NCBI RefSeq assembly: GCF_012911015.1 | Contig: NZ_WVVV01000005.1 | Location: 207,761-271,760, forward strand | Length of the DNA: 64,000 nucleotides | From: Chelativorans sp. ZYF759 | Lineage (GTDB): Bacteria > Pseudomonadota > Alphaproteobacteria > Rhizobiales > Rhizobiaceae | Direction: 5' to 3' | In this document: piece by piece, positions 1 to 54,279 of the stretch | Position numbering within the stretch: position 1 is the stretch's first letter | Layout: the number at the start of each line of letters is the position of its first letter | Notes under the pieces: model-generated | Told to the model about the DNA's origin: nothing | Database searches by the model: none | The model's input: only the letters and a program-made list of their open reading frames with translations | Program-made: the position numbers and the translations under genes

Positions 1-593
1 AGATCTCGGTGCCGCCGCGTGCGCTCGAGCCGGCCGGGCGCAAGCGCTACTGGCCGCTCTACGAGGCCGCCGCCCATTACGGTCTGCCGATCGGCATGCA
101 TTCGGCCGCCTTCGGCAGCCGGGCCAACACCGGCAGCGGCTGGACGTCCTTCTACATCGAGGAACACTTCGCCTTCTCCAACGCCAGCCAGACCGTGCTG
201 ACCAGCATGATCTTCGAAGGCGTCTTCGATGCCATTCCCGACCTCAAGCTCGTGCTGGTGGAAGGCGGCTTCGCCTGGCTGCCGCCGCTGATGTGGCGCA
301 TGGACCGGGAATGGGAGCGCATGCGCGGCGAGCTTCGCCACGTGAAGAAGCGGCCTTCCGAATATGTGAAGTCGAATGTCTGGCTGACCACGCAGCCGAT
401 CGAGGAGCCGGAAATCAACCGTCACCTCTATGACGTGCTGGAGTGGGTGGGTCACGATCGGCTGATGTTTTCGACCGACTATCCGCATTGGGATTTCGAT
501 CATCCCGAATATGCCTTCAAGGTGCCGATCGACCCGGCCCACAAGCAGGCCATGCTGAGGGACAACGCGATCGCGCTGTTCGGCCTGAAATGA
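1..593 (+). CDS. Amidohydrolase family protein (metal-dependent hydrolase), 5' truncated by the window edge
   Basis: Frame is open from the left edge, so the true start lies outside the window; an internal GTG at position 9 is only the first possible codon seen. About 194 residues of the C-terminal half of an amidohydrolase-2 (TIM-barrel, ACMSD-like) protein are present. Visible motifs are a barrel-strand HSAAFG, the LVEGGFAWLP segment, and the late FSTDYPHWDFDHP motif whose Asp is the usual metal or catalytic ligand of the family. The stop overlaps the ATG of the Rieske gene (aATGA), so the two are translationally coupled. The substrate cannot be told; decarboxylation or hydrolysis of a ring-derived acid is the family norm. 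Family assignment is firm, function open. Confidence 0.85.
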   Translation, partial: ISVPPRALEPAGRKRYWPLYEAAAHYGLPIGMHSAAFGSRANTGSGWTSFYIEEHFAFSNASQTVLTSMIFEGVFDAIPDLKLVLVEGGFAWLPPLMWRMDREWERMRGELRHVKKRPSEYVKSNVWLTTQPIEEPEINRHLYDVLEWVGHDRLMFSTDYPHWDFDHPEYAFKVPIDPAHKQAMLRDNAIALFGLK

Positions 594-48301: not shown

Positions 48302-48636
48302 AGCCGGAAATGATGCGGTCTGCGGAAGGGCCTCCTGTCAGGTGTCCGCCCCCGTGCGGCCGAAGGATGCCAGTTCGGCTGAACTTTCAATGGCTGAGGA
48401 AGATCGCGAAGACCGACCCGTTCCTCACAGCGTTCTTTTCGGCGTCGACGAAGTCCCGATTCCAGGTGGCGCGACCCGCGCCCGCCGCCCGTCCGGCACT
48501 TTCGGCAACCTGATCTGGAACGCGTCGGCGACCTGATCTGCAAATGGCAACCGATCCTGATCGAGCCAGATACGGCCCCGGTCCACGGGCCTTGCGCGGG
48601 CGCTGCCCTTCGCCGTCATCTGTTGGCTCTGAAAAT

Positions 48637-48672
48637 GATACACCGAGTGCTACACGGCGCGATACACCGTCA
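48637..48672. repeat. Three tandem 12-bp repeats, array 1
   Basis: GATACACCGAGT, GCTACACGGCGC and GATACACCGTCA run head to tail with a 12-bp period and a shared TACAC core. A similar array lies 210 bases to the right. Confidence 0.55.
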
Positions 48673-48743
48673 CTGTGGGCCATCTCCGGTCTCCCGATTC
48701 GGGGCGGGAGGCGTTCCGATTGCCGGGAATGGCAGGCAAAGAA

Positions 48744-48776
48744 CTGGCGGAGAGTGCCCTACGGGCTGGCGGAGAG
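48744..48776. repeat. Direct repeat resembling tRNA-Ser 3' ends
   Basis: CTGGCGGAGAG occurs twice with a 22-bp period. The complement CTCTCCGCCAG, preceded on the complementary strand by GAGTCCCCC, resembles the acceptor end of a serine tRNA, the usual target of tyrosine integrases. No complete tRNA can be folded here. Confidence 0.45.
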
Positions 48777-48846
48777 GGGGGACTCTACCCCGCAATCGGG
48801 CAAAACAAGGCTTTTCCGGCCATTCAGCGCAAAGGCCCGGCATCAG

Positions 48847-48882
48847 CGATACTTTCCACGATACCTACCACGATACACAACG
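48847..48882. repeat. Three tandem 12-bp repeats, array 2
   Basis: CGATACTTTCCA, CGATACCTACCA and CGATACACAACG are consecutive with a CGATAC core and a 12-bp period. They could be arm-type sites of a lost integrase. Confidence 0.55.
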
Positions 48883-49351
48883 TTTGAGAGCCCCGCTTCT
48901 GCAGCAGGTTCCAATGCGCGTGGCTCCGGATGTGCCGGGCAACCCGGTGAGTACTTCAAGGGCTTGAAGAGCGTAGACAAGATGCTGGTAAAAGAGGATT
49001 CTGATAGCGCTGGCTAAGAGGGTTCTCAGTGAGTGAATTACCGTCCAATTCAATGCTCTGGTAATCGAGTGGCTGGGGGACCTGGATTCCCGGCCAGAAG
49101 AAGGGCGCTTCCCGGCTAGATCTTTGAGATCGCTGGGAATTTCAGTCGGACGAAGCGGTCTTGCCACATTTCGTGCATCACCTGTGTGCCCAGATCCGAG
49201 GGCGACGTCAAGAGCCCGGTCTGGTGCCGGAGTGCCTGTCAGGAGAGACCAATTGATGCCATGGCGACACACGAGAAATTATGGGATGGCACGCCCTCCT
49301 CGGGCGCCCTGCTACAATGCGGGGTGTCGATCGCGGAGAGGAGAGCGAACC

Positions 49352-50381
49352 ATGAGCATTTTCGTTTTGGGCGTGGACCTTGGCAAGACGTTCTGCAGCC
49401 TGGTTGGACTTGATGAGGAGGGCGCGGTGGTGCTGCGGCGCACGATCCGGCGGAGCGGATTGTTGAAGACGATAGAGAAACTGGAGCCGAAAGTGGCCGC
49501 GATGGAGGCGTGCTGTGGTGCGCACTTCTTCGGTCGCCAGTGTCAGGCGCACGGCATCGAGGTCCGGCTGATGCCTTCGGTCTACGTGAAGCCCTATGTG
49601 AAGACGAACAAGAGCGATGATCGGGATGCCGAGGCGATCGCGGAAGCCGCGACCCGGCCGACCATGCGTTTCGTGCCGCTGAAGAGCCAGGAACAGCTGG
49701 ACCTGCAATCGGTGCATCGGCTGCGCGATCGCCTCGTCGGCGAGCGGACCGGTCTCATCAACCAGTTGCGCGCCTTCCTGTTCGCGCGGCATCTCAATCC
49801 CGAAGAAGAAGGCCAGCCTTGCCCACTACATGGGCGAGATTGAAGCGGGAGTGGCACCGGAGGGGATATCGAACCTGGTTCGTTCTGTCCTGCTCGACAT
49901 GTGGCGGGACTGGCAGCGCCTGGATGAACGCATCGCACAATCCGAGGCGACTATCGCGCAGGCCTGCCGCAACGACGAACGAATGAAGCAGCTCATGACA
50001 GTGCCTGGCATCGGGCCACTCACCGCCTCGGCCCTGGTTGCCGCGATCGGTGACGGCAGCGCGTTTGCGAAGGGCCGCGACCTGTCGGCCTGGCTGGGGC
50101 TTGTTCCGCGCCAGTCGAGCACTGGCGGCAGGACCAGACTGCTTGGCCTCTCCAAGAGAGGCAATGTTTACCTGCGCAAGCTGTTCATGCATGGCGCGCG
50201 GTCGGTCCTGCGCACGTCCCCAGCGCCGTTGCAAGCTTGGCTGGAGGGCCTGCGTGGCAGGATGCATGTGAACAAGGTGGTGGCGGCGCTGGCCAATCGG
50301 CTGGCGCGTATTGCCTGGGCGATCCTGAACAGCGGGCAACCTTTTGCAGCCAGGCAGCCCAGGGCAGCGGCGACGGCTTAA
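49352..50381 (+). pseudogene. IS110-family transposase, frameshifted
   Basis: Start ATG 49352 with GGAGAGGAGAG upstream. The N-terminal DEDD RuvC-like part is in one frame (VLGVDLGKTFCSL, TNKSDDRDAEAIAEAATRPTMRFVPLKS). The Tnp20 part is in another, with PGIGPLTASALVAAIGDGS and the catalytic-Ser region VPRQSSTGGRTRLLGLSKRG. The break is near 49785-49795: restoring the expected FLFARGI reading needs two bases (GC) in a CGCGCG run, so a two-base deletion is the simplest cause. A sequencing error is possible. Element ends are not visible; IS110 elements lack clear inverted repeats and carry a bridge RNA in non-coding flanks. Confidence 0.85.
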
Positions 50382-50879
50382 CGAACCGGCGGCAACTACG
50401 ACCGCCAACGAAATCTGCGAGCGGAAGGGAGGATAGCCAGTCGATCGGCGCCTGGAAGAACCTGAGGGAAATGAAGGCCGTCCGCGGCCGAGGAAATTAT
50501 GAGGATCCAGGCGCGCGAATCTCCACCGTGGTCAAAGGGCGAGCCCTTACGCAAAGACCGGATACATTGATGCAGACTGCAACAGCCATTCGACATTCAT
50601 CTTGCAGACGGAGGGCGGGCCATACATCATTTCCCGCAGTGGTCGGATGGGTTGACGCCAACCTCCAAACCGGGGTGGTTTCCTGCTTGACACTTCGGAT
50701 TTTGGCGGAGTTCCGCAAGCTTGTCCGCAAACGATCGAGTTGCGACAGTCGACGCCGACGCTCGGCAAAGCCTTCAAACGGCCCCGCTCTCTCGAAGCGT
50801 CTCCTTGATTAGTTTGAAGGCTGTTTTGCCCGGTCGGCCTGCGCAATAGAGGTGTAAGCTGGAACCAGATCGTGGACCA
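50382..50879. other. Degenerate region right of the IS110 transposase
   Basis: About 500 bases with no convincing gene. A peptide reading RGVSWNQIVDQMGCSRATVAT (about 50848-50910, in a frame with stops before it) resembles the C-terminal helix-turn-helix of a serine recombinase. The right end of the IS element probably lies within this stretch but cannot be placed. Confidence 0.35.
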
Positions 50880-51176
50880 GATGGGCTGTTCGCGGGCGAC
50901 GGTAGCGACGCAAGCCCTGTGGGCATGGTACATGCGCCTGGCTCCCTGTTCGACAAGCGGCTGCTTGCCACGATGCAGCGCGGTAGTTTCGTGGCCGACG
51001 CGATTACAGAACCCCTCCAGACGCGCCTTCTCGCTGATGCAGCGGCACTCGGGCTGGCAATAATTGGTGGCCGTGCCATGACTGGCGGTCAGTTCGAACT
51101 GCTCGGCCGGTTCCTGGGTGTGTTCAATGATCCGCGTGACCCGCAGCAGGACATAGCGTCGCGCTGGGCGACTTGA
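50880..51176 (+). pseudogene. Shikimate dehydrogenase-like 3' fragment
   Basis: The frame reads DASPVGMVHAPGSLFDKRLL and then FVADAITEPLQTRLLADAAALGLAIIGGRAMTGGQFELLGRFLGVF to a stop at 51176. This matches the C-terminal third of AroE-type shikimate/quinate dehydrogenases (N-A-T/S-P-x-G-M motif, then the D-x2-Y/T-x-P-x2-T-x-LL and GG-x-M helix). The N-terminal two thirds is missing, replaced by the degenerate mobile-element sequence. Non-functional remnant, presumably cut by insertion or deletion. Confidence 0.6.
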
Positions 51177-51215
51177 GTAACCGGCAGGAACTGCGATCGG
51201 CACTGGGCGAGAACG

Positions 51216-51701
51216 TCAGCGCCGCTTCTCCTCTGCGTCACCGACGCCAAGCTCGTGGATCAACGGCAGAACCACATCGCTGCGAATTTCGAGGGTGGCA
51301 ACGGTTACCGGAAGTCGGAACCGTCGCGGGCCAGCACTGCCGGGATTGAGAAAGAGAACGCCTTCGATCGTTTCGACGCCCGCACGATGGGAGTGGCCCG
51401 AGATCACCATATCTATTCCGTCGCCCAAGTTATCGCCCGCCAACTGTTTGCGGTCGTGAACCACGAAAATGCTCCGGCCGAAGAGATTAAGCCTTAGCGT
51501 CTCGGGAAACCTTGAAGCCCAATCCGCCACATCGACATTGCCGCGGATGGCTGTGACCGGTGCGATGGCTTCAAGCCGGTCAATGATTTCCGGGCTGCCG
51601 ATGTCACCCGCATGGATAATGTGTTCGACGCCGCCAAGCAGCTCGACCGCTTGCTCGCGCAAGAGGCCGTGTGTGTCTGAGATGATGCCGATGATGGACA
51701 T
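51216..51701 (-). CDS. Metallophosphoesterase (YfcE/MJ0936-type phosphodiesterase)
   Basis: 161 residues from ATG 51701 (MSIIGIISDTHGLLREQA). All five metal motifs are present: ISDTHG, IIHAGDIGS, IRGNVD, FVVHD (His-Asp) and SGHSHRAGVE. Length is standard. A soluble Mn/Ni-type phosphodiesterase with activity on model or cyclic substrates. Intact despite the degenerate neighbours. The broken HNH gene ends two bases upstream on the same strand, so the two formed one transcript. Confidence 0.92.
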   Translation of the reverse strand: MSIIGIISDTHGLLREQAVELLGGVEHIIHAGDIGSPEIIDRLEAIAPVTAIRGNVDVADWASRFPETLRLNLFGRSIFVVHDRKQLAGDNLGDGIDMVISGHSHRAGVETIEGVLFLNPGSAGPRRFRLPVTVATLEIRSDVVLPLIHELGVGDAEEKRR

Positions 51702-51703
51702 GA

Positions 51704-52630
51704 CTAGCCGAGATAACGGTTCTCTCGGTGCCATGCGAGCGCTTCAGCCGAGGGGAGCGCTTCAATTGAGCGCGGCGGCCGGACCCAGGTGCCGTGGAAA
51801 TCGTAATAGTGCCGACCATTGTCGAAATCGTCCTTCAATCGATGGCTGACTTCGAAGCGCTTGTCAGGCGAGACGGTCACATAGCCGAGATCGAACAAAC
51901 GGTGGATGTCGGTTCTCAGCAGCAAACCGTTCGAAGGGTCGTGATCCCCTCCAGCATGGAAGGAGTGAATGTGGGCGGCATCGAGTATAGGCAGCGTCTT
52001 TTCGCCCGAGACAGCGCAGCGCCGTTCGTAGCTGTCGGTAACGCTCAGTCGGAACGCGCCCTGTCCCAGGCGCGGCTTGATAAGGGTAGGGTTGCCATAC
52101 CGTACGACGTCGGTTTCGATAATGGTCGATCTGCCTGCCTGCATCCGGTCAGCAACCGCTTGCCAAAGGTGTAGTCCATCACGGTCCTCTACCGAGAACC
52201 GCTTGCCTGTGACGATGTTAGGCGACCAGCTTTCAGGGACCGGCACCCACATGTCACGCGGCCAAAAGAATGGCTGTGTCAGGATCCGGCAGCCAATGAC
52301 TGGCTCATGACGGTCGTCGAGTACGGCCGGATCACGCCGGTAGTGAGCGATTCGCGCCCGCATCTCTCACCGGGTCGTCACACCGTTCTTCTGTTCGAGC
52401 GCCTCCCAGGCAAGTGAAAGTGGCGCGAGTGACGCGTGGCTAAACACGCCGCCGCCGACGATGAAGTTGTTGGGCGAGTGGAGCTTGAAGAGAAAGAGTT
52501 CGCCAGGCTGCAGTGCCTTGAACCGTGTGTTGCCGCTTGGCTGCCAGAAATTGACCTCATCGTGCGGCGCTGAAGCAGCCAACATGTCGAACCACGCCTT
52601 GTCGGTGACCGCTACAAACAGCCGAACCAT
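51704..52630 (-). pseudogene. PUA-like/HNH endonuclease interrupted by one in-frame TGA
   Basis: One reading frame of 309 codons contains a single internal stop (TGA at 52369-52367, codon 88). The N-terminal part (VRLFVAVTDKAWFDMLAAS, NFWQPSGNTRFKALQPGELFLFKLHSPNNFIVGGG) resembles a small PUA/EVE-like modified-base reader. The C-terminal part has the HNH-type core RRCAVSGEKTLPILDAAHIHSFHAGGDHDPSNGLLLRTDIHRLFD. Reading across the stop (KNGVTTR-stop-EMRARIAHYRR) fits a continuous protein, so this is a recent nonsense change or sequencing error. Intact relatives look like modification-dependent restriction enzymes. The downstream part could restart at ATG 52363. Confidence 0.75.
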
Positions 52631-52864
52631 TCGTGGTCCTTATCTGAGTCCCTCTGTGGAGAGCCTAGCCCACCCAGAACTCAAGTGCGAGCGTGGCAGG
52701 CGGTAGCGAACGCTTCGCCAATCGGCCGTGATTGTGAAGATAGCCTACTTCGCTCAAAGCTGAGAAGACCTCGCGGTAGCCAGCAGGTTTTCGGGAAGCG
52801 GATTTATCCACGTCCTCAAAATGGGAGTCATCATGGTCGTATCCCAGACAAGCGGAGACCAGAG
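52631..52864. other. Intergenic region right of the HNH gene
   Basis: No gene or repeat recognised in this stretch, which separates the HNH gene (leftward) from the putative two-helix ORF and the convergent MaoC-like gene. Confidence 0.3.
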
Positions 52865-53452
52865 ATGCTGACCATGGAAATGCTGTTCATCGCAGTCGTC
52901 ATTCTGACGATCACGAGCGCCGCGGCCGCCGTCGCCCTGTCATCGGACGAGACCATGCAACGCGTCGTAGTCGTGCGCCTGGTTCGTATCGCTTTTCTTG
53001 GTGCCTGCGCAATCGTCATGCTGCTGCTCCAAGAAGCCCCTCCAAATTGCGGGTCTGCATCACGGGTCTTTTGCCTCGAGCGCTCCTTGGAGGGCGTTTT
53101 GTGTCAGATAGAACAGCCACTCGCCGACCAGTGTAGGGGTCCCGTCCTCCCTTTCCAGCGCTACGTCCTGCTTGATGATGACACCTTCGGAGCGAGGCCG
53201 GATCTCGCTGATGCGGATGCGGGCACGGAAGGACGCGCCGACGGGAAGCGGTGCGACGAAGCGCAACCGGTCGAATCCGTAGTTGAGGATGTGATTGGGA
53301 TCGAACCCGCCGAACCCGCGAACCGTTTCGCCATGAAGACGGGTAAGATTGGCAACCTGAAGAAAGCCGGGCACGATGGTTCCGGCATAGGGTCCTTCGC
53401 GGGCCGCCCGTTCGGGGTCGAGATGGATCCATTCGCCTTCGCCATCGCCTGA
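52865..53452 (+). CDS. Doubtful ORF beginning with two membrane helices
   Basis: ATG 52865 has GGAG seven bases upstream and opens MLTMEMLFIAVVILTITSAAAA and IAFLGACAIVMLLLQ, two credible membrane helices (about residues 3-23 and 42-57). After about 60 residues the frame enters the antisense of the MaoC-like gene and stays open only as a shadow to 53452. Either a small membrane protein that has lost its stop, or chance. Low confidence in any product. Confidence 0.2.
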   Translation: MLTMEMLFIAVVILTITSAAAAVALSSDETMQRVVVVRLVRIAFLGACAIVMLLLQEAPPNCGSASRVFCLERSLEGVLCQIEQPLADQCRGPVLPFQRYVLLDDDTFGARPDLADADAGTEGRADGKRCDEAQPVESVVEDVIGIEPAEPANRFAMKTGKIGNLKKAGHDGSGIGSFAGRPFGVEMDPFAFAIA

Positions 53453-53575
53453 AACAACGGCGTAGTGGTTGACTGTTTCCTGATCGATGACGCGCCAGGG
53501 CGAGACGTACTCCTGCCCGAGTAGTGCGTTCAGCTTTTCCGACGCAAAATGGTCCAGCGCTCCGCGTTCCGACAT
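53060..53575 (-). CDS. MaoC/NodN-like dehydratase
   Basis: 171 residues from ATG 53575, with GAGGAG seven bases upstream; an ATG at 53596 is less well placed. Hot-dog fold of the NodN branch: DQETVNHYAVVSGDGEGEWIHLDPERAA with the catalytic Asp-His region, GTIVPGFLQVANLTRL, ILNYGFDRLRFVAPLPVGA. Hydratase of an enoyl-CoA or related thioester. The TetR gene precedes it on the same strand, 29 bases apart; with the divergent hydratase and ligase genes it suggests CoA-thioester catabolism. Confidence 0.85.
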   Translation of the reverse strand: MSERGALDHFASEKLNALLGQEYVSPWRVIDQETVNHYAVVSGDGEGEWIHLDPERAAREGPYAGTIVPGFLQVANLTRLHGETVRGFGGFDPNHILNYGFDRLRFVAPLPVGASFRARIRISEIRPRSEGVIIKQDVALEREDGTPTLVGEWLFYLTQNALQGALEAKDP

Positions 53576-53604
53576 CGGTCTCTCCTCGATTGTCATCTGC
53601 TGTC

Positions 53605-54279
53605 TCAGTCCGCCACCACGCGCGTCCAGATCGCAGTTAGCCCATTAGCCAAGCGGCCAGGCTCGTCGGCCCAGTGGTGCAGGCTCGGCGTCCGTGCTGT
53701 GAAGATGTTGCTCAGCAGCTCGTCGGCCATCGCTACGAGTGCGCGTGCGCGCAGAACCTTCTCGTCGCGCGGCAGTGGGCCAGGCATGTTCGCTGCGATT
53801 ATCTGCGACCACCGGTGGTTCGAGGCGTCATGCCACAAGGCGAATTCCGGGCGCTCGCGACCAAGTGCGGACTGCCCTGCGAGAAAGGGGGCGTTACGCG
53901 CGTACAGCGCAATGTAGAAGGCGTTGGTTACGCGGATGCGCTCTTCGAGGCTTCGTCCGCGCAGGCGTGGCCGGACGCGATAAACGGCGGCCCAGAACAT
54001 ACGGTAGACGACCACCGCGATCCGCGAGCGATCCGGGTAGTAGAGATAGAATGTGCCGCGGGCCATGCCGATGGCGGCGCAGATGCCGTCAACCGTCAGG
54101 CCCTCATATCCCTTGGAAGCCAGTTCCCGTGCGGCCGAGGCGAGAATTTTCGCCCTCGTACGTGCCCGCTTCGGACGCCCGCGCATATTCACCGCTCGTC
54201 GCGCCAGCAGTTCCACAAATTCGAAAGCCGCAGCCTCCGGCGGCTCGTCCAAACTCATTATCTGTGGTTGCCCATCCAT
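53605..54279 (-). CDS. TetR family transcriptional regulator
   Basis: 224 residues from ATG 54279 (MDGQPQIMSLDEPP); ATG 54258 is an alternative, and the frame beyond 54279 is a shadow of the ATPase gene. TetR helix-turn-helix: TRAKILASAARELASKGYEGLTVDGICAAIGMARGTFYLYYPDRSRI (about residues 47-93). The C-terminal ligand domain has no recognised subfamily. Divergent from the PotA-like gene, with a large palindrome between (54308-54337). Likely represses both directions. Confidence 0.9.
   Translation of the reverse strand: MDGQPQIMSLDEPPEAAAFEFVELLARRAVNMRGRPKRARTRAKILASAARELASKGYEGLTVDGICAAIGMARGTFYLYYPDRSRIAVVVYRMFWAAVYRVRPRLRGRSLEERIRVTNAFYIALYARNAPFLAGQSALGRERPEFALWHDASNHRWSQIIAANMPGPLPRDEKVLRARALVAMADELLSNIFTARTPSLHHWADEPGRLANGLTAIWTRVVAD

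Follow-up and report, generated by a model that had tools for sequence, protein, structure and literature searches.

A PUA/EVE-like-HNH restriction endonuclease gene carrying one internal nonsense codon in Chelativorans sp. ZYF759

We identified a gene for a PUA/EVE-like-HNH restriction endonuclease, interrupted by a single internal nonsense codon (a pseudogene or a mis-read base), on the minus strand (51704..52630) of a 64,000-nucleotide stretch of the Chelativorans sp. ZYF759 genome, to which we refer as the window. Very probably, this is a gene of the modification-dependent (type IV-like) PUA/EVE-HNH restriction endonucleases that was inactivated very recently by one nonsense mutation. It is a case of ordinary defence-gene loss within a known restriction family, freshly inactivated or mis-sequenced.

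Reading frame and internal stop codon

The minus-strand frame starts with an ATG at 52630, ends with a TAG at 51706-51704 and reads through as 308 residues with one internal stop, being otherwise colinear with its relatives. Codon 87 is followed by TGA as codon 88 (52367..52369, minus strand), a single GAG codon and then an ATG at 52363. The first open piece (52367..52630, minus strand), which comprises 87 codons and the TGA, covers the first half of the predicted PUA-superfamily sensor domain and has no Pfam match on its own, while the second (51704..52363, minus strand; 219 aa from ATG 52363) covers the remainder of that domain, the linker and the HNH domain. Of the 309 codons of the gene frame, 2 are stops, the internal and the terminal one, and the other five frames of the same stretch have 5 to 16. 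Since the read-through product aligns along its whole length, at 80% identity, with that of an intact gene of Chelatococcus asaccharovorans, the frame is not open by chance. The coordinates and codons thus bear out what a first-pass annotation had read from the letters, namely that a PUA/EVE-like part and an HNH part share one frame split solely by TGA at codon 88.

A single uninterrupted ORF is expected of a PUA/EVE-HNH enzyme and is seen in all 23 full-length relatives described below, but not in the window gene. Because of the TGA at codon 88, we classed the window copy as a broken member rather than as an active enzyme.

Predicted sensor domain and HNH nuclease

In the C-terminal half, Pfam detected an HNH_2 domain (1.7e-10) at read-through residues 205-253 (51872..52018, minus strand), in agreement with the nuclease proposed in the first-pass annotation, and H220, N234, H243 and D247 are retained; the C-terminal HNH domain with its catalytic residues that typifies the class is therefore present. 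The best PADLOC HNH model matched residues 179-306 (2.1e-17). The only solved relative found by sequence was VcaM4I (6yex), at 1.8e-6 for the HNH half and at 1.8e-13 for the profile, over 154-266. The HNH region (residues 191-304) also resembles the phosphorothioated-DNA restriction endonuclease NF045808 (1.4e-14); the likeness is to this region only, its 53.9 bits falling short of the cut-off of 180 and the sensor part being unmatched.

No Pfam match was found in the first half of the read-through protein. We built an AlphaFold2 model on 8 sequences (mean pLDDT 63.5). Averaged in blocks of 10 residues, the pLDDT of the first 160 residues was 58-90, mostly at least 74, and residues 168-237 and 301-308 were under 50. 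According to this model and VIA-align, residues 1-166 (52133..52630, minus strand) form a PUA-superfamily (ASCH/EVE/YTH-like) domain, as expected at the N-terminus of a PUA/EVE-HNH protein. The top match in the fold comparison was the ASCH domain of Zymomonas mobilis (5guq, 5gus, 5y6b and 5y6c; Z 12.7, rmsd 3.2 over 138 residues), which is 5% identical to the window sensor and whose solved chains, of about 140 residues, are hence without an HNH part. The EVE domain of VcaM4I (6yex_A) followed with a middling Z of 8.3 (rmsd 3.4 over 125 residues; model 2..166 against chain 1..153), the EVE entry 2eve with 8.3, THYN1 with 7.9 and YTH domains with about 7-8, values at which, by the tool's own warning, a match may reflect a common arrangement only. 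As a Z near 8 is ambiguous, the assignment to the PUA superfamily draws chiefly on the ASCH matches, together with the numerous related domains listed. When a profile of the sensor (9 rows) was compared with solved chains, no EVE chain was matched by sequence, and the sole match was a chance-level Cas12p (E 0.5). The PUA/EVE-like domain suggested by the first-pass annotation is therefore supported at the level of the modelled superfamily, alignable to the VcaM4I EVE sensor; its subclass, EVE or ASCH-like, and its ligand are uncertain, since ASCH outranks EVE and the VcaM4I match is middling.

VcaM4I, an EVE-HNH endonuclease from Vibrio campbellii, is the known system most like the window family in its layout, with an N-terminal PUA-superfamily sensor, a linker and a C-terminal HNH domain in about 309 residues. 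It differs in that the two sensor domains have no sequence match, that its D250 corresponds to His 243 of the window protein (numbering counted by hand) and that its gene is free of the stop. Its flipped-base pocket consists of P24, W82 and Y130, while W29, P31 and W75 are invariant in the window family, no residue-level correspondence being implied. EVE-HNH enzymes are presented as modification-dependent (type IV) enzymes, either by prediction or from tests, in passages of PMC7897488, PMC7641849 and PMC12707154, and those of PMC7897488 report that the linker helix of VcaM4I is auto-inhibitory, as the fragment 148-309 transformed like controls whereas 179-309, the HNH domain alone, was highly toxic. 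By analogy with VcaM4I, the intact form would use its PUA-superfamily domain to read a modified base, probably a modified cytosine, in incoming DNA, and the linker helix would restrain the HNH dimer until binding of that base releases the nuclease. In the window genome, translation from ATG 52630 would end after 87 residues, giving half a sensor domain and no enzyme.

Intact relatives

The 23 full-length relatives, which are 31-80% identical to the window protein, each encode sensor and HNH together in a single uninterrupted frame. They came from genomes of the same order (4 from 397), class (6 from 385) and family (4 from 394), own genome excluded, from a species-genome collection (1, Chelatococcus asaccharovorans), from plasmids (2, drawn from the best 20 of 284 matching records) and from viral contigs (6 of 7 loci). 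The near-duplicates L042/L043 and L103/L104 were each counted separately. Left out of the counts were HNH-only matches, which we took as other HNH families, the distant or partial matches G341, G039, G099, G965 and G1038, which were not placed in the subfamily, and the viral locus L045 (query residues 4-265, 32%). The viral contigs yielded no close relative to a single-protein query and the 7 loci to a profile query. Ten records of the phage collection matched, none with a coverage of 80% of the query; the 8 listed of these 10 align to residues 167-303 only.

Nine residues are invariant in 23/23 relatives: T9, W13, W29, P31 and W75 in the sensor half, and H220, N234, H243 and D247 in the HNH half. 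On the other hand, column 88, at which the window has its stop, holds ten residue types among the 23, with Cys in none of them. The intact orthologue that is 80% identical belongs to C. asaccharovorans DSM 6462 (L033) and is full length and encoded by one gene without an internal stop.

Broken relatives

Eight other relatives are damaged, all checked by one script, which together with the window makes 9 broken copies against 23 intact ones, a rough ratio, as the searches favour long matches and the collections sampled differ. On a plasmid of Deinococcus sp. NW-56 (L036:4001-4939), the gene is full length with a lone stop, TAA at codon 13; the gene call of that record begins downstream of the TAA, which masks the damage. 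The copy on a plasmid of Bradyrhizobium sp. 62B (L035) contains one stop and changes frame near residue 195, and that on a plasmid of Deinococcus sp. QL22 (L115) retains residues 189-308 in two frames. The remaining five are N-terminal remnants: the first 114 residues on a plasmid of S. terangae (L038; the genome match G1130 has nearly the same coordinates, and the two were counted once), the first 83 in L007 (G187), two frames with one stop and nothing beyond about residue 165 in L008 (G015), the first 90 in L053 (G463; 2-101 by profile) and the first 46 on a plasmid of Rhizobium ruizarguesonis (L125). The idea that a tRNA gene marks the end of the broken copy in G463 did not hold up.

Since these eight relatives are damaged in different ways, loss is common in the family, and the window locus is one more, very fresh case of modification-dependent restriction genes being readily lost. 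The 23 intact and 9 broken copies, window included, would allow asking at what rate such defence genes decay, and the intact relatives, with a sensor that has no sequence match to that of VcaM4I, are better study objects than the window copy.

Age of the stop codon

Among the other sequences, 61 columns are near-invariant (conservation of 95% or more), and the window protein departs from them at only one. As the conserved residues are kept on both sides of it, the stop is either recent or a sequencing error. Taking one event over 141 nonsynonymous sites, the one-sided 95% upper bound on the time since loss is about 0.034 neutral substitutions per site. The very recent loss that the first-pass annotation had put forward is in line with these figures, by which an age greater than this bound is disfavoured.

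Between the window and C. asaccharovorans, dN is 0.146 and dS is saturated. Among 8 close sequences, where columns were scored if the other seven agree, changes were counted at 4/128 for the window, 2/126 for the C. asaccharovorans copy and 6/130 for L110. Relative-rate tests of the window against the C. asaccharovorans copy with 22 outgroups, which are not independent of each other, gave p values from 0.007 to 1.0, and five were <0.05, all toward faster change in the window. Scored at columns on which L033, L004 and L034 are in agreement, the window is changed at 2/48 before the stop and 7/118 after it; L033, tested likewise, is changed at 2/48 before the stop position and 2/113 after it. The tests for relaxed selection thus gave mixed results, and selection on the window copy may perhaps have been slightly relaxed.

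Alternative readings of the stop

It is unlikely that the TGA was introduced by mistake in base calling or assembly and that the gene encodes an intact PUA/EVE-HNH restriction enzyme. The lesion is a lone one in a 91-contig draft genome, the catalytic residues are retained with just the one change in 61 near-invariant columns, and the remaining frame is nearly as preserved as those of intact relatives, all of which would fit a mis-read base. Assembled contigs seldom contain single-base substitution errors, however, and genes in the neighbourhood are also broken, while the eight damaged relatives point to loss as a common fate. The TGA could be recoded, by selenocysteine or by suppressor read-through, as the frame continues open before and after it and the Rfam model for tRNA-Sec exceeded its cut-off of 47, with 48.7 bits, at a single site of the genome. 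That site is a tRNA-Ser(TGA) according to ARAGORN, though, and the model is not specific, given that it matched 14/14 control genomes (5 of them over the cut-off). SelA had no match in the own genome, in a search whose controls did find it in E. coli and M. jannaschii, and the variability of column 88, with Cys in 0/23 relatives, also argues against recoding. Selenocysteine is thus disfavoured, and we give recoding of any kind the slightest of chances.

The first-pass annotation had also raised expression as two polypeptides. These would be an N-terminal piece of 87 residues and, from a restart at ATG 52363, a piece of 219 residues, either cooperating or with the second acting alone. Both pieces are open, and an ATG one codon past the TGA is at a spacing that permits termination-reinitiation. 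Against this, the stop bisects one predicted fold (residues 1-166) near its middle and at a variable column, leaving both pieces short of a complete sensor. Residue 90, the proposed restart Met, is Met in 17/23 intact relatives and is hence not an added start. By eye, a Shine-Dalgarno-like AAGGA lies immediately 5′ of ATG 52630, while ATG 52363 has only a weak GGTGAG 5′, at a spacing too short for that start. Relatives with sensor and nuclease as separate genes numbered 0 among the 23, so the pattern of homologues always encoded by two genes, for which we looked, was not seen. As more distant halves would appear only as partial matches, we checked the five N-terminal remnants (L007, L008, L038, L053 and L125), and no C-terminal half was found in the 3-8 kb covered at each locus. 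Moreover, a restart product would keep the linker with the HNH domain and, by analogy with the non-toxic VcaM4I 148-309 in the passages of PMC7897488, would be expected to be silent. Two purposeful polypeptides are consequently very unlikely, and it is similarly hard to credit, indeed slightly harder, that the stop is maintained and that a linker-plus-HNH protein, restarted at ATG 52363 and with its nuclease freed from base recognition, has another job, with the half sensor as decoy or partner. A reversible, phase-like inactivation, the third possibility in the first-pass annotation, would also agree with a lone lesion. No repeat tract was found at the stop: the single tandem array detected (53302-53324) is outside the gene, no inverted repeats were found at the stop, and 48500-53700 has two imperfect pairs of 17-18 bases (82-83%) with arms about 3.4-4.0 kb apart. 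As slippage cannot revert a nonsense substitution, we regard this as highly improbable. Recent inactivation by a nonsense mutation is the reading that we retain.

Gene neighbourhoods

We compared 20 relative loci, and in 7 of them the PUA/EVE-HNH gene has a second HNH gene, of about 300 aa, directly beside it. The second gene is on the same strand in L103 (5934-6857), L104 (5925-6851), L105 (5769-6767), L107 (5933-6871) and L041 (5923-6855), in two frames in the C. asaccharovorans locus (L033:6965-7901), where it follows the intact orthologue, and on the opposite strand in L114 (4035-4934). For L104 and L033, the presence of HNH_2 was confirmed; L109 has a frame of 214 aa following the gene, possibly another second HNH gene, which was left out of the count. 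The PUA/EVE-HNH gene of L104 is preceded by toxin-antitoxin genes with AbiEi and AbiEii domains (L104:2997-4788), with similar genes in L103:3006-4797, and an AbiEii-family gene is annotated near the L034 gene (L034:1-513). In the viral contigs L039 (2644-5279) and L042 (3349-5921), the PUA/EVE-HNH gene is divergent to a ParB/DNA-methyltransferase gene; phage primase-like genes are nearby in both, and a terminase in L042. The gene in these two contigs is a restriction enzyme borne by phages or prophages.

In the window, the place of the second HNH gene is occupied by a yfcE-like metallophosphoesterase gene (51216..51701, minus strand; Pfam Metallophos_2 3.2e-37, TIGR00040 3.2e-24), which is open throughout and is probably unrelated to the HNH gene. 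Its chosen start, at 51701, is 2 bases past the end of the HNH gene, the listed ORF reaching 51734, and relatives at E 1e-30 were present in 5/61 genomes, own included. Further along lie an 85-aa C-terminal remnant of shikimate dehydrogenase (aroE; 50919..51176, plus strand), with an NCBIfam match (PRK12549, 5e-7, profile 204-258 of 286) and no Pfam match at E 0.01, and a frameshifted IS110-family transposase gene (49124..50381, plus strand), with PF01548 in 49124-49840 and PF02371 in 49830-50378 in different frames. The stretch at 49.1-52.6 kb looks like a small decaying patch. The IS110 transposase has three partial relatives, with 68-84% identity, elsewhere in the genome.
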